Positions 7-7,785 of a DNA stretch of 64,000 bases are shown in pieces. The position numbers and the translations under genes were made by a program. Positions within the stretch are counted from its first letter, which is position 1. Each line of letters opens with the position of its first letter. The notes beneath the pieces were generated by a model. It did no database searches. It was not told the origin of the DNA and was given only the letters and a program-made list of their open reading frames with translations. This DNA comes from an uncultured Roseibium sp. (lineage in GTDB: Bacteria; Pseudomonadota; Alphaproteobacteria; Rhizobiales; Stappiaceae): the NCBI RefSeq assembly GCF_947496995.1, contig NZ_CANMFD010000001.1, forward strand, positions 1,484,692-1,548,691. Direction: 5' to 3'.

Positions 7-23
7 ATCCCCATATAGGGACA
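7..23. promoter_or_regulatory. Copy 1 of the shared CCCCAT..GGGA palindrome
   Basis: The sequence reads ATCCCCATATAGGGACA, matching TCCCCA-N2-TGGGGA except for one position in the right half. The same motif lies upstream of three genes in this cluster (2705-2721, 5587-5603, 7663-7678). Here it lies downstream of the leftmost visible gene, so it probably serves a minus-strand gene beyond the left edge. That assignment is inference. Confidence 0.55.
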
Positions 24-418: not shown

Positions 419-1627
419 CTAGGAAACGAGGGCCGTTTGCTGCGGTTCGTCTGAAACCGGCGCGCCTTCACGCCAGACATCGATGGAGGAGTCGGCCTCT
501 ACAAGTGTCCGCATCGAGCGAAGTCTTTTCAGCGTGATTTCGCTCAACAGACTTCCCGTTGCAAGCAACAACCTGTCATCTGTGTCGCGAATATCGGAGG
601 CAAGGAGGTCTCCCGCCTGAAGCTGCAGAACAGGTACGGAAATACGTTGCGCATTCGGGCTTCCGGCAAAATGCTGGTCTCCGCCAAGAACTTTTCGCAT
701 GGCCTCAAGTATGCGCGGGTCATAGCGCGGAGCGTTTTGTTTCAGCTCCTCCATACAGGCCAGATAAGATGGCGACTCGCCGGTCGAAATCTCGGCCAGA
801 TCGATGAGTGCACACAATACCCGGGCCGCCTCAGGGATGTCTTCTCCCTTGATGTCATCCTTCGGGAACCCGCTGCCGTCAAATCCCTTGCGGCAATAGT
901 AGATCGCATCTGCAATGCCTTCCATTCTGGGGATGTGCAACACAAGGTCGCGTGCCATGGCAGCAGATTCATTCACGACATTCTTTTCCTCAGGCGTTAG
1001 CGTAGAACCGCAGAAATATCTCTCGGCAAGGTCGTCGGCCAATGTCAGATAGCCAAGTGTGCAAAGCATCGCGGAGATACCCTGTTCGAGTGAGGGTTTA
1101 GCTTCCAGAGCCTTGTTTACCTTGCGCGCCCAACGTTGAATCATCGTTGCGCGCAAGTGAGCTCGCGGACGCGACATGGCAATGACATCGACCAACATCT
1201 TGACGCTGCCTGACAATGTCTGTTCAAGCAGCTCTCGTTCAGCTGTGACTGTCTGGTGGTGTGCTATCCCTTCTTCGATTACTTTGGTGAGCGCATCGGA
1301 ATCGCATGGTTTTGTTAAGAAGCGAAAGATGCGCCCATCATTGACGGCGTTCATCGCCGTCTTCTGGTCGTTGTTCCCAGTCAGCATTATCCGCGTGGTC
1401 GATGGGGCTTTTTTTGATATGTGACCAAGCAGTTTAATACCGTCAACACCGGGCATGTTTTGGTCGCTAACCACAACTGCAAACGGACCTACGCTCTTGA
1501 TTTTTTCCAGCGCTTCTTGCGGACCGTTGGCCGTTACAACGTCTACCGAGCGGCGCAGCACGCGTTTGGCGGCGGCGAGAACGTGAATCTCGTCGTCGAC
1601 AAGAAGAACTTTGCGGTTCTGTGTCAT
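419..1627 (-). CDS. Response regulator with degenerate HD-GYP domain (HnoD-like)
   Basis: The 402-residue protein starts with a receiver domain (acidic pair D11/D12, phospho-acceptor D55, K106 in FRFLTKPC). A C-terminal HD-GYP-type domain spans about 140-330. The metal and catalytic residues are lost: the expected HD pair reads C189-T190, the HHE/WDGSGYP region reads YCRKGFDGSGFP, and the motif is GFP. It is therefore unlikely to hydrolyse c-di-GMP. In Shewanella and Vibrio H-NOX systems a receiver with a degenerate HD-GYP (HnoD) allosterically controls an EAL phosphodiesterase, and I infer the same role here. The ATG overlaps the stop of the upstream HDOD regulator (ATGA), so they form one transcription unit. 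The TAG stop is formed at the junction with the MITE-like element; the empty site would give TAA at the same codon. Confidence 0.85.
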   Translation of the reverse strand: MTQNRKVLLVDDEIHVLAAAKRVLRRSVDVVTANGPQEALEKIKSVGPFAVVVSDQNMPGVDGIKLLGHISKKAPSTTRIMLTGNNDQKTAMNAVNDGRIFRFLTKPCDSDALTKVIEEGIAHHQTVTAERELLEQTLSGSVKMLVDVIAMSRPRAHLRATMIQRWARKVNKALEAKPSLEQGISAMLCTLGYLTLADDLAERYFCGSTLTPEEKNVVNESAAMARDLVLHIPRMEGIADAIYYCRKGFDGSGFPKDDIKGEDIPEAARVLCALIDLAEISTGESPSYLACMEELKQNAPRYDPRILEAMRKVLGGDQHFAGSPNAQRISVPVLQLQAGDLLASDIRDTDDRLLLATGSLLSEITLKRLRSMRTLVEADSSIDVWREGAPVSDEPQQTALVS

Positions 1628-2643
1628 GCTGCGGCCTCGTTGTTGTTGGTTTGGTTTCCAAACTCATTGATGGCGTTGGCTATCAGCCGCGGCCATTGTT
1701 CAAAAGGAGCTGCCGCATTGGTTGCTGCCAGGCCCAGAAGAGAGACATGCAGCACTTGGGGCAGTCCGAATAAGACAGTCAGAAACGCCGCTCGCTTGGC
1801 AACCTGAGCGAGCGAGCCTGTGGTGTCGACGGCGCCGCATCGCAGTGCCAGTCCCAACAGGTACGCTGCCGCCAATGCTTCGGGATCATTCGTGAACTCT
1901 GCGCATTGGTTTCGGCAGGCGCGTGCGAGCCAATATGCCTCTTCCGTAGCCAGCTCGCTTTCAATCGGTGCTTTGCTGTCCTGACCCAGGCGCGCCGCAT
2001 CCATGAGATCGCGAAGCCGATCAATCCCGAGGTTCGCTACGGCCCTTCTTACGCAACATGTGCTGACAGGCTTTTTGAAGTAGGCAGAGTTGCTCAGCTG
2101 CAGCAGGCGAAGTGACAAACTTGGGTCGCTGCCCACAATTTGATGCACATGCTCGATATTGGGTTCATCAGCATTCAGTGCGCAGCGGAACTCCTCAAAG
2201 GTTGTTGCCGGAGTTCCAAGTTTGTCGAGCATGGACAGCTCGAAGCTGCCGTTTTCCACCTGGTCATGCAACTGGGCATTTACAATATCGCACAGCACGG
2301 AAAGGATGGCCTCCGGTGAGCATGGTTTGGCCAGAAAACGATGGCTGCGGCCGACGATACGATAGATTTCCTCGAGCTTGGCCTCTCCCGACAAAACGAT
2401 CCGAATGATTGTCGGGTGGTGTGCAGATATCCATTCCAGCAGCTTCGACCCGTCCACCTCGGGCATTCGCATATCCGTAACAACGATATCGATATTTTCG
2501 AGAGTGATGACCTTAACGGCCTCAACTCCGCCATTCGCAAAGTGCATGTCCCATTGATCTCGATAGTGACGCACTTGTCGGCGCACAGCTCTCAAGATGT
2601 TGGGTTCATCATCGACAAACAGGATGCTCACTTTGCGGGACAT
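1624..2643 (-). CDS. Response regulator with HDOD output domain
   Basis: This 339-residue protein has an N-terminal receiver domain (D11/D12, D57 in VVTDMRMP, S85, K106 in RFLAKPC) and a C-terminal HDOD domain from about residue 130 (SLSLRLLQLSNSAYF followed by VRRAVANLGIDRLRDL). HDOD domains are non-enzymatic scaffolds seen in bacterial signalling proteins. The start is placed at MSRKVSILFVDDE because the receiver fold begins there; an in-frame ATG 48 bp upstream would add a non-conserved extension. It is translationally coupled to the degenerate HD-GYP regulator through a 4-bp overlap. A shared palindrome lies about 70 bp upstream of the start. It is presumably phosphorylated by the H-NOX-linked kinase; that partnership is inferred from position. 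Confidence 0.85.
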   Translation of the reverse strand: MSRKVSILFVDDEPNILRAVRRQVRHYRDQWDMHFANGGVEAVKVITLENIDIVVTDMRMPEVDGSKLLEWISAHHPTIIRIVLSGEAKLEEIYRIVGRSHRFLAKPCSPEAILSVLCDIVNAQLHDQVENGSFELSMLDKLGTPATTFEEFRCALNADEPNIEHVHQIVGSDPSLSLRLLQLSNSAYFKKPVSTCCVRRAVANLGIDRLRDLMDAARLGQDSKAPIESELATEEAYWLARACRNQCAEFTNDPEALAAAYLLGLALRCGAVDTTGSLAQVAKRAAFLTVLFGLPQVLHVSLLGLAATNAAAPFEQWPRLIANAINEFGNQTNNNEAAA

Positions 2644-2704
2644 TTTTCTTTTCACCCTCTCGCTACTCACAGCGAGGAAGATAAATGCCAAGAGCGTGCG
2701 CCAA

Positions 2705-2721
2705 TATCCCCATTTGGGAAC
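2705..2721. promoter_or_regulatory. Copy 2 of the shared palindrome, upstream of the HDOD regulator
   Basis: The sequence reads TATCCCCATTTGGGAAC, with 5 of 6 half-site pairs of TCCCCA-N2-TGGGGA. The centre is about 70 bp before the ATG at 2643. The 2-bp spacing between half sites resembles NarL/FixJ-type operators, which would fit the LuxR-HTH response regulator encoded at 2896-3888. Confidence 0.65.
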
Positions 2722-2895
2722 AACGCTTGCCCACGATCATTTTTGTACTCAAATCTGGAGTTTCTTGCCGCTGCTGCCCGTGACGACACGCATGGTTCCC
2801 GGCGATAAAATTAATTAAAGCAATGCTTTATGGTTTTCTGCCGCAGATCTGATTGCCGTCTATCTATGGATCAGCAGAAAACTTGTCAGAAGAAT

Positions 2896-3888
2896 CTAGT
2901 CCGTCACAACGGTCCGTGAACGAACCAATGCTGCGGGTGTCGTCAGTATCAGTTGCACCAGGTCGACCTGACGTCGGACGCCGGTTTTTTGAAAAATGCG
3001 TTTGAGATAAGTCCGGGCTGTCTCCTGGGTGACATTACAGTTCGCCGCCGCGTCCTCAACGGTTCCGCTGTTGGCTATTGTCTGCGCAATCACGGCTTCC
3101 ACGGGGGTCAATCCAAATAGATCGATCAGACTTTCGGCTGAAGGCGGCTCAAAACGCCCTGGGACAGTGAACATGATTGCAACCCGTTTCTGTCCCAGTG
3201 GGGTGATCACTGCGGTAAGCGGCTCAAGATCATGCGGATCGGTTAGCGACACGAATTTTGGCATTTTGTCGATGTCCATGGAGGCCTTTTGCACGGCCTC
3301 CTTGAACTCCTGCCGGTCTACCGAAGCATTGACTTTCAAGGCACCGTTGCGATCAACAACGATGCCGCTGTGTGTTTTCAGAACTTCGGCGGCACTGTCA
3401 TTGTAGTAGACAATCCTGCAATCCCCGTCGACGACGGCGACCGCCGGCGACATGGCGGAAAGCGCCGCTGTCGCCATATTTCCGGGGTGTTCCTGACGGC
3501 ATCTGATCGCAGACAGGGCGACGTCCAGAGCCTCCACCAGGTTCTCTGCCGAACATGGTTTTGTCAAAAAACGAAAAACGCCTGTCTTGTTGATGGCATC
3601 TATCGCAGATGCCAGGTCTGCATTGCCGGTGAGCAGGATGAACTCTGTATCCGCAGTTTGCTGCAGACGTATCTTCTCGATCATTTCGATGCCCGTCATG
3701 CCGGGCATGCGCAGATCGCTGACGACCACGTCAAAATGGTCTGAACGCACTAACTCGATTGCTGTCAACGGGTCGGACTCGAAGACTATCTCCCAACGTT
3801 CGCGCTCGCCCCGCAGGACCCGGCGAAGGGAATCCAGTACAATGACTTCGTCATCGACGAAAAGGATACGTTGCCGCTCTGCATTCAT
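2896..3888 (-). CDS. Response regulator with LuxR-type HTH (HnoC-like role)
   Basis: The 330-residue protein has a receiver domain (D12/D13, D58 in VVSDLRMP, T87, K110 in FRFLTKPC). A middle region of about residues 140-235 resembles a PAS fold (AVVDGDCRIVYYNDSAAEVL). A C-terminal LuxR/FixJ helix-turn-helix lies around 255-320 (LTPVEAVIAQTIA ... QETARTYLKRIFQKTGV). It is the only DNA-binding protein of the cluster and so is the best candidate for the protein that reads the CCCCATTTGGGG palindromes. No such palindrome lies upstream of its own gene. All three receivers of the cluster share the unusual RFL(T/A)KPCS/D segment, suggesting a common kinase. The gene stands alone, with 250-bp and 140-bp gaps around it. 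Confidence 0.85.
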   Translation of the reverse strand: MNAERQRILFVDDEVIVLDSLRRVLRGERERWEIVFESDPLTAIELVRSDHFDVVVSDLRMPGMTGIEMIEKIRLQQTADTEFILLTGNADLASAIDAINKTGVFRFLTKPCSAENLVEALDVALSAIRCRQEHPGNMATAALSAMSPAVAVVDGDCRIVYYNDSAAEVLKTHSGIVVDRNGALKVNASVDRQEFKEAVQKASMDIDKMPKFVSLTDPHDLEPLTAVITPLGQKRVAIMFTVPGRFEPPSAESLIDLFGLTPVEAVIAQTIANSGTVEDAAANCNVTQETARTYLKRIFQKTGVRRQVDLVQLILTTPAALVRSRTVVTD

Positions 3889-4027
3889 GCGGCAACACTA
3901 GTACCACAAAGTAAAACAAATGTTTAGACGCATAACAAGAAAACATATTGATAATATTTACAAGGGTAGAGGTAGATTTTTTCTTCTATTCGAACTGCGC
4001 GATCTGGTGAAAGTCTGCAAAAGCGTA

Positions 4028-5500
4028 TTACTGTTTGTTCAGGACATGCGGCGATAGATTGAGATCTGCGTATGCCATCGGTCTGGCATAAAAAAAGCCT
4101 TGTGCAACCTGGTAGCCTATGGAAGCAAACAGATCTCGCTGCGCCGAGGTTTCTATTCCCTCTACTGTCAGTCGGGCCTTCATTTTCTCGGCGATTCCGC
4201 CGATCGTCTGCGCAATATGTTGTGCCTTGTCGCATTTCAGAGCCTTTGCGACAAAACTTCTGTCGATTTTCAATTCGTCCCATTCGAAATCGGTCAGATA
4301 GGACAGCGCCGAATAGCCAGTCCCGAAATCGTCCAGTGAGATCGAAACGCCAAGCGCCTTCAAACTGGTGAGCGTGTCGAAAATTCTCTTGCTGTCTTTG
4401 ATGATGGCGGATTCAGTGACTTCCAGCTTTAATCGCGAAGGCTTGAGACCCGTAGCGCTGAGCACATGTCTGGTGAACTCCGGCACATCGTCCTGAACAA
4501 TCTGGAGCACGGAGAGATTGACCGACACGCATGGGGCACCGCGCATGGCAACCGCGTCTCGGCAAGCGAGTCTCAAGATATGTTGTCCAAGCGGGACGAT
4601 ACTTCCCGTGCGCTCCGCCACGTCAATGAATTCAGTTGGCGGGATCATTCCCAATTCCGGGTGTTTCCAACGTGCGAGTGCCTCCATGCCGACCATTTGG
4701 CCACTGATAATGTCAAACTGGGGTTGATACACGGCGTAAATCTCACGGGATTCAATCGCTAACCGAAGCTCGCTCTCGATCTTTCGATTTCGAATTGGCC
4801 CGGTTTTAAGAGAAGGCGTATAAACGGCGGTCTCATTGCTCCCGTTCTTGCAAGCCTCTTGCATGGCCAGGTCAGCTCTGAGTATCAGTTCACGAGCGGA
4901 CAGGCATTCGCTGTTGGCAACGGCAACGCCGACATTGCCATCCAGCCGTGCATAGAAGTTCTCGTGAATGTGTGGAACATTTGCGATTGCCAGCAGGATG
5001 TACCCAAGGACCTTGAGTTCGCAATCATCCTCCACATTGTGCACTATAAACGAAAACTCGGCATCTCCGGTCCGTGCAATGTAGTTTCGTTGATCAAGTT
5101 TACGAACGTATGTTGCCAGTTCGTTGCTGACATGGGCCAGCATCATGTCTCCACGGCCATAGCCGAAATGAGCATTTATATGTTTCAAACGGCTCAGTTT
5201 CAGAACAATCAAACCGAAAGAGGGTGTGTCATCGGCGCTGCTGCAGACCCTGTTCACATGATCGAAAAAAACCTTGCGATTGGGCAGTTGCGTGAGGGCA
5301 TCGATTTGCCTGCTGCAATCTTGATCGTCGGCAGGGTGGCCACAAGATTCAGGATCACTTTGAAAAAGCCGGTCTTTGGCTTGCGCACCCGTACCCGGAT
5401 CGAACAAGCACGCAATTCCACTTGCCGCGTCCCCGAGGACCTGGGCAATGCCACTCGATGTCCTGGACATCAGATCCGTTCTACGATTGCCCTTGAACAT
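4028..5500 (-). CDS. GGDEF-EAL protein; likely active c-di-GMP phosphodiesterase
   Basis: The protein has 490 residues. An N-terminal GGDEF-type domain (about 67-230) begins with DALTQLPNRKVFF, but the signature that should read GGDEF is TGDAEF near residue 144, so cyclase activity is unlikely. The EAL domain (about 240-485) keeps its motifs: EAL at 273-275, the LEVTES glutamate near 361, DDFGTGYS at 390-397, K411 and EGIE near 450. These are the metal and catalytic residues of c-di-GMP phosphodiesterases. It has no receiver domain, unlike HnoB of Shewanella, so control must come through another partner such as the degenerate HD-GYP protein. No transmembrane segment is visible. An SD-like GGAAGG sits 8 nt before the ATG, and the shared palindrome lies 95 bp upstream. 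Confidence 0.88.
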   Translation of the reverse strand: MFKGNRRTDLMSRTSSGIAQVLGDAASGIACLFDPGTGAQAKDRLFQSDPESCGHPADDQDCSRQIDALTQLPNRKVFFDHVNRVCSSADDTPSFGLIVLKLSRLKHINAHFGYGRGDMMLAHVSNELATYVRKLDQRNYIARTGDAEFSFIVHNVEDDCELKVLGYILLAIANVPHIHENFYARLDGNVGVAVANSECLSARELILRADLAMQEACKNGSNETAVYTPSLKTGPIRNRKIESELRLAIESREIYAVYQPQFDIISGQMVGMEALARWKHPELGMIPPTEFIDVAERTGSIVPLGQHILRLACRDAVAMRGAPCVSVNLSVLQIVQDDVPEFTRHVLSATGLKPSRLKLEVTESAIIKDSKRIFDTLTSLKALGVSISLDDFGTGYSALSYLTDFEWDELKIDRSFVAKALKCDKAQHIAQTIGGIAEKMKARLTVEGIETSAQRDLFASIGYQVAQGFFYARPMAYADLNLSPHVLNKQ

Positions 5501-5586
5501 TCAACTTGCCTTCCCGATCGAACCGCCACACTGGCGGACGAAACCAATTTGTTCCGGCATTAAAGCTGAACGGACGGGCCGAACGA

Positions 5587-5603
5587 TATCCTCATTTGGG
5601 GAC
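5587..5603. promoter_or_regulatory. Copy 3 of the shared palindrome, upstream of the GGDEF-EAL gene
   Basis: The sequence reads TATCCTCATTTGGGGAC, a match to TCCCCA-N2-TGGGGA with one substitution in the left half. Its centre is about 95 bp before the ATG at 5500. It lies between the GGDEF-EAL gene and the end of the histidine kinase gene, consistent with a separate promoter for the EAL gene. Confidence 0.65.
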
Positions 5604-5707
5604 GCTTGGACACATTGGACGAGAAAACTCCAAAACAGGTGACAATGCTCATGATCCGAGACCTGTCTGGAGCGATCGGCGTCGCCCTGAACGTCAGACA
5701 GGTTGCG

Positions 5708-7096
5708 TCAGTGATCGGTTTGCTGCGCGCGAGGAAACCTCAGTCGGAAGGTCGTTCCTTCCCCAGGTGTGCTGTCTACCATAACCTGGCCGCCATGCTT
5801 GACGTGAACGATCTTGTAGACGATGGCGAGACCCTGACCGGTTCCCTTGCCAGGTGCCTTGGTGGTGAAAAAAGGGTCGAAAATCCGCTCTCGGGTGGCT
5901 TCATCGATACCCATGCCATTGTCCGAGATCGAAACCTCGACCCATTTTCCGGCTTTGCGTGTTCCAATGCGGATCTGGCCGCCCGCTGATGGCGAGCTCT
6001 CCTCGATCGCATCCGCGGCGTTGCCTATCAAATTCAGCAATACCTGGTGCAAGTCGCCCGGCTGACCGATGATCTCGGGCAGGTCTTCGTCAATGTCCTG
6101 CTCCAATTCGGCCACATGCTTCCAACTGTTGCGTGAAACCGACACCGTGGTTTCAATGATGCTATTGATATCCACGGCTTGAAGTTCAGCATCGCCTGGA
6201 TGCGAAAACTCCCGGATCGCCGATACGATGGAGGCGACCTGCTGGAGGCCATGAAGGGATTGCTCGATGGCGACCGGAGCCTCTTCAAGAATGAACTCGA
6301 TATCGCCTTCTTCATACTGTTCCGAGATCGCGGCCGTCAGATCGGCCAGGATACCTTTTTCGATCACGGCCTCTTTGAGCGGCTCATAGGCCTTCAGCAA
6401 GCCGACAATACCATCGTAGAATTCCTGAAAGAACTTTACGTTGTCTCCAACATATTGAATTGGCGTGTTGATTTCATGCGCAACGCCACTCGCGAGCGTG
6501 CCCAGCGCTTCCATTTTCTGTGCCTGGTTAAGGCTGCGTTCCAGCAGCTCCTTCTCGGCTTCGACTAACAGATGCTGTCTGATGTCCACCAAAATCCACA
6601 GAAGCAGCCCATCGTGCCCGATCTCGGTGCATGAAATTCTGACGGGTAATTTCTCACCATCCGGGCGTGTCACTTCCCCTTCTGCCGTGCTGTCATCGAA
6701 ACGGGCATGCGGCCCGGAGCGCGCGTTTATCCATGCACTGGTTTCCTCGGATCCTCCGAGAAACGTGGTCAGTGGCGCTGCCAATTCCGGCTTTTGCGGT
6801 ACGTCCAGAAGTGTGGATGCCGACAGGTTCAATCTGACAATTCGAAGCGCATTGTCCGTAAGGACGAGCCCTGAAGAGCGTGCATTGAAGACAGCACTCA
6901 GCAGCGTGCTCTCCTTGTCGAACATGACAAGTGAAGCGGCGAGATCCTGGTTCTTTTCGTAGAGCTCAAGGCTCTTTTTCTCCAAAAGATTCTCAGCTTC
7001 CAGTCGAGCATTCCGCTCCCTTGCAAGCCGTCTGACCAAAGTGTCGTAAGGCAGATTTGTCAGGGTCACCTCCTCACGAGTGTAAACTGGGCACAT
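5708..7096 (-). CDS. H-NOX-associated PAS histidine kinase (HnoK/HahK-like)
   Basis: This soluble sensor kinase has about 450-462 residues. After a short coiled coil rich in R/E/A ([20 protein letters not shown]), typical of kinases paired with H-NOX proteins, comes a PAS domain (about 65-175). The HisKA helix has its phospho-acceptor at H207 ([11 protein letters not shown]), and the ATPase domain has the N box ([14 protein letters not shown]), the G1 box (DNGMGID) and the G2 box ([11 protein letters not shown]). In known pairs, NO-bound H-NOX inhibits autophosphorylation. The start is uncertain: the ATG at 7096 overlaps the H-NOX gene by 31 bp and has no good SD, whereas a GTG at 7069 overlaps the H-NOX stop but abuts a GAGGAG. 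Either way it is coupled to the H-NOX gene. No transmembrane helices are seen. Confidence 0.88.
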
Positions 7097-7611
7097 TGGT
7101 CGCCGTTCACGTCCGGCAGTTCGGTTCTCGTCAGATCTATTGCCTCACCGTAGTGGTCGATCGCGCCCCACAACAGGCCCTCGGCCAGATCAGCCATACG
7201 CCTGCTTGAGCGGTAAACCAGACGGAGTTCGTCATTGCTGACCTGCGTGGCTGTCAGGTGCGGTAATTCTGCATCCGGATAAAGCTTCAGCACATCGACA
7301 TGGATCTGATCTTCGACCGACCGGACGAATTCAAACAGGCTTTTGCAAGATTCGAAATAGGCAGTGTGCCCAGCCTTGAAGATTCCCAGAAGATGTTTTC
7401 CGAATGTTTGCAGCAAGTCGGCGACAGGAACGTTCGATTCCGCGTGCAGACATTTGACAAGCCGAACCATTTCCGCTGCGTCGTAGTTGCCAACTCCTGT
7501 GTAAGCCCCATCATTCGCGAGCTCTGCATCAACGATGATCTTTTCGGTTACCTCTGCACCGAATGCCTCGTCGACCAAAGAGAAAAACTCATTGAAAACG
7601 ATACCTTTCAT
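7066..7611 (-). CDS. H-NOX (haem nitric oxide/oxygen-binding) sensor protein
   Basis: The 181-residue protein matches the stand-alone bacterial H-NOX length. It opens with the family start MKGIVFNEF. The haem proximal histidine fits H104 in IHVDVLKLYPDAELPHL, and the Y-x-S-x-R haem-propionate motif is Y133-R-S-S-R137. I see no tyrosine in the distal-pocket segment after that motif, which would fit NO selectivity over O2, but this needs an alignment. The protein is cytosolic. In facultative anaerobes such proteins bind NO and gate the adjacent kinase, feeding c-di-GMP and biofilm control. It is the first gene of a two-gene unit with the kinase, with an AGGAGA ribosome site before ATG 7611 and the shared palindrome 60 bp upstream. 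Confidence 0.93.
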   Translation of the reverse strand: MKGIVFNEFFSLVDEAFGAEVTEKIIVDAELANDGAYTGVGNYDAAEMVRLVKCLHAESNVPVADLLQTFGKHLLGIFKAGHTAYFESCKSLFEFVRSVEDQIHVDVLKLYPDAELPHLTATQVSNDELRLVYRSSRRMADLAEGLLWGAIDHYGEAIDLTRTELPDVNGDQCAQFTLVRR

Positions 7612-7662
7612 GGTGTTCTCCTTTTCCGAGACCAGACCTAGCCTCTTATCCCGACGTCCGCA

Positions 7663-7678
7663 GTACCCATTTGGGGAG
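7663..7678. promoter_or_regulatory. Copy 4 of the shared palindrome, upstream of H-NOX
   Basis: The sequence reads GTACCCATTTGGGGAG, a match to TCCCCA-N2-TGGGGA with one mismatch. Its centre is about 60 bp before the H-NOX ATG. With the copies at 2705 and 5587 it suggests that the H-NOX/kinase, EAL and HDOD/HD-GYP units are co-regulated. Confidence 0.65.
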
Positions 7679-7785
7679 CTAAAGGTGAAAATTTATCTTG
7701 ATTGAACCGCGCCGGGTTTGCCGGGCGGCTCCCTGTGTGGATGCCCCGGTTCATGCAAGTGTCTTTTCCGCCATCGTGCATGTGA

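Follow-up and report, generated by a model that had tools for sequence, protein, structure and literature searches.

A probable Hno-type nitric oxide network with two kinases, one receiver hub and a shared operator in a Roseibium genome

What circuit is encoded where an H-NOX gene lies together with genes for a histidine kinase, an EAL protein and three receiver regulators? We addressed this question for such a cluster in an uncultured Roseibium sp. (assembly GCF_947496995.1, contig NZ_CANMFD010000001.1, positions 1,484,692 to 1,548,691; this stretch of 64,000 nucleotides, analysed as a whole, is called the window). Open reading frames (ORFs) and Pfam matches placed the six genes together on the minus strand at 419-7611, as an earlier note made from the sequence alone had described, with the H-NOX gene directly beside the gene for the histidine kinase and overlapping it by 31 bp. 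The cluster continues beyond the window on the same strand with genes for a PhnD-family protein and then a second kinase. We consider it reasonably probable that this locus encodes an alphaproteobacterial nitric oxide (NO) network of the Hno type, in which two kinases serve one receiver hub and a shared operator is bound by a receiver-PAS-LuxR protein. The earlier note had proposed an alphaproteobacterial variant of the NO/c-di-GMP circuit in which protein contacts alone govern the EAL enzyme; the Hno-like layout stood up to analysis, and control of the EAL protein by contacts alone appears unlikely as stated, because the palindrome found before the H-NOX, HDOD and PhnD units also precedes the EAL gene.

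The domains of the cluster proteins are consistent with such a network. The H-NOX protein matches HNOB (PF07700) at 127.5 bits, against a cut-off of 25.5, and its alignment contains IH...YP and YRSSR, that is, the proximal histidine and the Y-x-S-x-R haem motif, both of well-known function in this family, and haem binding is predicted. The aligned region of the reported zinc/thiol site contains a single cysteine in this protein, at the C-terminal end. Pfam found HATPase_c in the H-NOX kinase, and an EAL domain (209 bits) in the EAL protein, where the motifs of known functional role are intact. This protein lacks a receiver, as previously claimed, and so is not a receiver-EAL protein of the HnoB type; the earlier description needs correcting only by an additional GGDEF domain with the degenerate motif RTGDAEF. 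Response_reg was found in all three regulators, each of which keeps the acceptor aspartate, the threonine or serine and the lysine, residues with well-established roles in receivers. The first regulator had been described as carrying a LuxR-type helix-turn-helix (HTH) domain, and an AlphaFold model (49-row alignment, mean pLDDT 88.2, pTM 0.56) bears this out by aligning with full-length FixJ, StyR and RcsB over 308-317 columns (RcsB 317), although the GerE match of 22.0 bits lies below the Pfam cut-off of 23.5 and the PAS domain between receiver and HTH, at 19.2 bits, is also under its cut-off. A receiver with a DNA-binding output, the role of HnoC, is present as this receiver-PAS-LuxR-type HTH protein. 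Pfam confirmed the HDOD domain of the second regulator, which the earlier note had singled out as an addition, and found HD_5 in the third. The note had called the HD-GYP domain dead; the HD dyad is indeed missing from this protein and from all 16 of the 16 alphaproteobacterial homologues aligned, which argues against an active HD-GYP phosphodiesterase, and the protein scored 214.5 bits against the NosR-family response-regulator phosphodiesterase model NF053512, whose curated cut-off is 400. Outside the window, the PhnD-family protein (PF12974, 199 bits) has a hydrophobic N-terminal stretch and PtxB and ArrX as its best solved relatives, and the second kinase, of 650 aa, has two hydrophobic segments, a HAMP domain and a PAS domain.

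When the C-terminal half of the H-NOX kinase was used as a query against the genome, the second kinase was the top match at 216.8 bits; the remaining 14 matches scored at most 88 bits and all started past the phospho-accepting histidine, and this search returned no third kinase of the same phosphotransfer type in the genome. Around that histidine, 24 of 32 residues are identical between the two kinases. As neither phosphotransfer half has a closer relative in the genome than the other, both kinases are likely, on sequence grounds, to feed the same three receivers. A search with the second kinase in 39 genomes gave three matches at E<=1e-40, all limited to its C-terminal part, and its N-terminal part as a query found 53 relatives.

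Comparison of 19 upstream regions yielded a 16-bp palindrome, RTCCCCAwATGGGGAY, which precedes four transcription units: H-NOX/kinase, EAL, HDOD/HD-GYP and PhnD/second kinase. A matrix trained on nine sites from three related genomes only (G043, G031 and G037), with this genome and Labrenzia sp. OB1 left out, found four sites in the window at 21.6, 21.1, 20.5 and 17.0 bits, all of them before cluster genes; the next score was 13.3. The highest score in 400 kb sampled elsewhere on the same contig was 14.5 bits, the best in 397 kb from 20 other loci of the family was 15.3 bits (beside a receiver-PAS-HTH homologue in L102), and 3.84 Mb of simulated sequence gave a maximum of 16.8 bits with five sites of at least 16. 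A plain pattern search of the window returned the same four places only, with 5 strand matches compared to 0.56 expected. Transcriptional control of the EAL gene is predicted from the palindrome in front of it.

Across relatives, sites and genes come and go together. In G043 and G057 the EAL gene is missing together with its site, as is the H-NOX gene with its site in G031; in G037, where H-NOX is on a separate contig, the H-NOX gene has a 16.9-bit site that was part of the training set. All six Roseibium-type genomes with the module have both the sites and the receiver-HTH gene. Sites scoring 16 bits or more were found, among 15 distant loci, in five of the six with a receiver-PAS-HTH gene (L135, L136, L138, L189 and L204; L134 reached 14.7) and in one of the nine without it (L193); these loci are not a random sample, as six were retrieved with the receiver-HTH protein as query and two belong to the same genome. 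Because the sites co-occur with its gene in distant loci, we name the receiver-PAS-HTH protein as the predicted binder of the palindrome, through which it would switch the whole circuit. An inverted repeat of the 7-2-7 form suits a dimer of a NarL/FixJ-type HTH.

Other sensor-like genes were seen near receiver hubs or palindromes. In G037, the receiver hub has as neighbours a FIST/FIST_C (NosP-type) protein and a third kinase with this type of phosphotransfer domain (L100:2316-5007), preceded by a 21.9-bit site from outside the training set; this pair is a candidate third sensor input. At L138:11774-13771 and L136:5644-7624, a gene for a small molybdopterin-binding-domain protein is paired with one for a membrane-type kinase next to receiver-HDOD genes; such pairs are another possible plug-in sensor, and two 19.1-bit palindromes lie in front in L138. 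Near H-NOX loci, L134:8449-9612 and L189:4743-6017 encode proteins with a receiver N-terminal to the kinase (Response_reg-HisKA-HATPase), and the strongest distant palindrome, at 22.3 bits, lies ~10 bp before the L189 ORF as called.

How H-NOX would engage its kinase is suggested by a helix-like stretch of ~40 residues at the kinase N-terminus (consensus xRLxRERxARxEAExLLExKSxELYxxN). A model of this helix, built from 11 H-NOX-linked kinases with no EAL or HD-GYP protein in the seed and applied at a threshold of 16 bits, matched 54 of the 68 genes that immediately follow H-NOX (43 of 57 when the 11 seeds were set aside). It matched none of the 1702 other ORFs of the 69 loci concerned, a set produced by mechanical six-frame calling with a minimum length of 150 aa. 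Kinases make up 28 of the 54 helix-bearing partners and receiver-bearing kinases another 7; the others are 15 EAL proteins and 4 dead HD-GYP proteins that stand alone. The helix was weak in three of the 68 and missing in 11, six of which are GGDEF-EAL proteins of ~600 aa. Among the 87 genomes of the family, 17 had one helix match each, always directly downstream of H-NOX by coordinates, and 7 of the 24 H-NOX genomes had none, one of them because the contig ends. Among 299 genomes of the phylum, 29 had helix matches and all 29 encode H-NOX, with 22 of the 31 matches adjoining it. Thus, the helix is a strong marker of H-NOX partners, and we predict that H-NOX docks on it. It is missing from the EAL protein of the present cluster, whereas EAL partners of H-NOX in other genomes carry it, and the kinase is therefore the predicted H-NOX target. 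Direct action of H-NOX on the EAL protein, an idea raised because GGDEF-EAL proteins are frequent H-NOX neighbours, was set aside, as this EAL protein has no helix and is not beside H-NOX.

Several helix searches returned genes of separate interest. Receiver-less dead HD-GYP proteins with the helix lie directly downstream of H-NOX at L192:10187-11191, L194:10348-11265, L195:10255-11181 and L200:10306-11232 (plus strand) and are candidates for direct H-NOX control. The ~600-aa GGDEF-EAL partner of another H-NOX subtype at L032:10453-12258 has no helix and a sub-threshold N-terminal HNOBA match. Away from H-NOX, the helix occurs in hybrid-kinase-like proteins from seven genomes of one alphaproteobacterial family (L273, L274, L275, L277, L280, L281 and L284) and, in two gammaproteobacterial genomes, in kinases encoded next to an MCP-CZB protein (L276 and L278). 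No description of the helix or the palindrome was found in literature titles and abstract openings, a search outside which most subscription papers fall; studies of the H-NOX/kinase interface exist, and the helix may thus already have been published in part.

A search of related genomes, which the earlier note had suggested, showed that the gene set recurs, without the EAL gene in two relatives and without H-NOX in one. H-NOX is present in 24 of the 87 family genomes and a receiver-HDOD orthologue in six (348-758 bits, next match 64). A search of named genomes gave six loci with H-NOX relatives, of which the nearest are those of Labrenzia sp. OB1 (96% identity) and Roseibium polysiphoniae (G043, 67%). 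All eight genes occur in this genome and in OB1, where an IS4/5-type transposase gene separates the EAL gene from the receiver-HTH gene and ~7 kb, including a peptide-type ABC transporter, separates the receiver-HTH and receiver-HDOD genes (interrupted cluster at L101:4422-13810). G043 and G057 keep H-NOX and all three receivers and have no EAL orthologue at E<=1e-60; G031 has the EAL protein, three receivers, PhnD-type protein and second kinase and lacks H-NOX; and G037 has the module on one contig and H-NOX with its kinase on another. The receivers cannot be dedicated to H-NOX, since G031 keeps them without it. In G031 and G037, the EAL protein has ~170-190 extra N-terminal residues with two hydrophobic segments that are absent in this genome and OB1. 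Beyond the family, the combination of H-NOX, kinase, receiver-HDOD, receiver-HD-GYP, PhnD-type protein and second kinase was seen again in G795, G333 and G425, three genomes from other alphaproteobacterial families, of which G795 also has a receiver-PAS-HTH homologue. H-NOX stands beside a kinase of this type, defined as a match of >200 bits to the C-terminal half, at 11 loci, with the PhnD/second-kinase pair nearby at seven; at most other H-NOX loci fetched, other partners accompany it. Among the papers that the literature search covered, none combined H-NOX, HDOD and a histidine kinase.

Several observations weigh against one network under a common operator. The loci compared are related to one another, and the sites of this genome are not fully independent of the discovery, because the palindrome was first noticed in these upstream regions. 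Shuffled versions of the window also reached five pattern matches in 1 of 100 cases, and two genomes with the hub, G333 and G425, have neither the site nor a receiver-HTH gene in the stretch. The helix is not strictly H-NOX-adjacent, as 9 of the 31 phylum-wide matches lie elsewhere. In addition, the receiver-HTH gene itself has no upstream site, and a stretch of G128 in which no such gene was seen contains a 21.7-bit site; both facts would also fit a palindrome that belongs to another regulator, such as a general NO/redox regulator encoded elsewhere, with the receiver-PAS-HTH protein acting on other promoters. We consider this unlikely, given the joint occurrence of site and receiver-HTH gene at five of six distant loci and in every Roseibium-type genome with the module, and given the fit of the 7-2-7 repeat to the dimer of such an HTH protein.

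The gene sets of two relatives would fit a different arrangement, in which two insulated pathways are neighbours, each kinase having its own receivers and only the operator being common: G031 has receivers and the second kinase without H-NOX, and the H-NOX/kinase pair of G037 is on another contig. Insulation nevertheless seems improbable to us, because the phosphotransfer half of each kinase is far closer to that of the other than to any further kinase in the genome and because both kinases stand beside the same receivers at 7 of the 11 loci with this type of H-NOX kinase. It could also be that the EAL phosphodiesterase is the central output, receiver-less and controlled only by contact with the dead HD-GYP protein, as in an HnoB/HnoD pair without the HnoB receiver. 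The intact EAL motifs, the lack of a receiver and the presence of a dead HD-GYP receiver agree with this, and passages of one review describe HnoD as acting on HnoB through contact (PMC6335343). However, a palindrome stands before the EAL gene, G043 and G057 keep the dead HD-GYP receiver without an EAL orthologue at the threshold used, and G031 and G037 encode an EAL protein with two hydrophobic segments in its N-terminal part; we thus regard this explanation as very unlikely, with contact between the dead HD-GYP and EAL proteins being possible in itself.

In the two-kinase network that we favour, H-NOX would bind its kinase at the N-terminal helix; by analogy with HnoX and HnoK, the NO-bound form would lower kinase autophosphorylation. 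A solute signal from the periplasm would enter through the second kinase, as in AioX/AioS- and ArrX-type systems. Phosphate would then pass to the HTH, HDOD and dead HD-GYP receivers, the acceptor sites of which are intact. The HTH receiver is predicted to set transcription of the H-NOX/kinase, EAL, HDOD/HD-GYP and PhnD/second-kinase units via the palindrome; since passages of PMC8738867 report that HnoC represses the hno regulon until it is phosphorylated, repression relieved by phosphorylation is our default guess for this protein. The HDOD and dead HD-GYP proteins would act through protein contact, the latter possibly on the EAL phosphodiesterase, as HnoD does.

Table 1. Coordinates of the cluster genes and sequence elements (window positions unless a contig handle is given).
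Feature	Position	Strand	Basis
H-NOX (HNOB), predicted haem NO sensor; sole H-NOX found in the genome	7066..7611	-	Pfam
H-NOX-linked histidine kinase: N-terminal helix, weak PAS, HATPase	5708..7096	-	Pfam
Predicted H-NOX-docking helix, kinase residues 22-63	6908..7033	-	helix model
Degenerate GGDEF + EAL protein, EAL motifs intact; without receiver, N-terminal hydrophobic segments or docking helix	4028..5500	-	
Receiver-PAS-LuxR-type HTH regulator, predicted palindrome binder	2896..3888	-	Pfam and AlphaFold model
Receiver-HDOD	1624..2643	-	Pfam; start ATG checked
Receiver-HD-GYP, HD dyad missing (dead)	419..1627	-	Pfam and alignment
Palindrome, 17.0 bits, 52 bp before H-NOX start codon	7663..7678	.	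matrix scan
Palindrome, 21.1 bits, 88 bp before EAL gene	5588..5603	.	matrix scan
Palindrome, 20.5 bits, 63 bp before receiver-HDOD/receiver-HD-GYP unit	2706..2721	.	matrix scan
Palindrome, 21.6 bits, 52 bp from PhnD start, before PhnD-type/second-kinase unit	7..22	.	matrix scan
PhnD-type periplasmic protein, just outside window	G000:C1:1483750-1484646	same strand as cluster	
Second kinase, outside window	G000:C1:1481813-1483765	same strand as cluster	

Taken more widely, the locus leads us to a tentative proposal, which is possible but which we do not hold to be probable: the cluster may be an instance of a plug-in platform, in which unrelated sensors (H-NOX, FIST/NosP-type and PhnD-type) join one receiver hub through kinases with the same phosphotransfer face and a common 7-2-7 operator, with the ~40-residue helix as a general H-NOX adaptor for kinases, GGDEF-EAL enzymes and receiver-less dead HD-GYP proteins. 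The helix offers a testable docking site for the control of one haem sensor over proteins with unrelated outputs, and the palindrome makes it cheap to test directly which protein regulates which gene and allows regulon members to be sought by sequence. In Shewanella, the stimulus of HnoS is described in passages of PMC6335343 as unknown and worth finding; if the kinases play the same part, the presence here, in the corresponding place, of a second kinase with a PhnD-family periplasmic binding protein turns this question into a ligand screen.

Among known systems, arsenic sensing of the AioX/AioS/AioR and ArrX types has as its first pathway component a PhnD-like periplasmic binding protein that adjoins a membrane kinase (PMC5908839). 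The PhnD-type protein here likewise adjoins a membrane kinase, and ArrX is among its closest solved relatives; unlike in those systems, the pair is linked to a hub of H-NOX and receivers, and inspection by eye only revealed no arsenic genes where the neighbourhood is annotated. NO-sensing two-component systems with NosP (FIST) resemble only the FIST/FIST_C protein and kinase of G037 and nothing in the cluster of the window. Passages of PMC8846402 describe clusters of H-NOX with an adjacent GGDEF-EAL protein in Legionella, Shewanella woodyi and Dinoroseobacter; here, in contrast, a kinase adjoins H-NOX, and the EAL protein lacks the helix common to most adjacent EAL partners. In layout, the cluster resembles the Hno network of Shewanella oneidensis, which comprises HnoX, HnoK, HnoS, HnoB, HnoC and HnoD in passages of two reviews (PMC6335343, PMC8738867), with two kinases feeding several receivers, including a transcription factor and a degenerate HD-GYP protein (PMC6335343); HnoD is given as that degenerate HD-GYP protein in the former and as having an inactive DGC domain in the latter. 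Compared by this reviewed layout and not by sequences, both systems have H-NOX beside a kinase, two kinases, transcription-factor and degenerate HD-GYP receivers and an EAL protein. They differ in that the EAL protein here has no receiver and is missing from some relatives, and in the added receiver-HDOD, the PhnD-type partner of the second kinase and the palindrome before four units. Because a receiver-EAL protein like HnoB is missing, we class the cluster as a variant that would work like Hno rather than as a plain member of that system.

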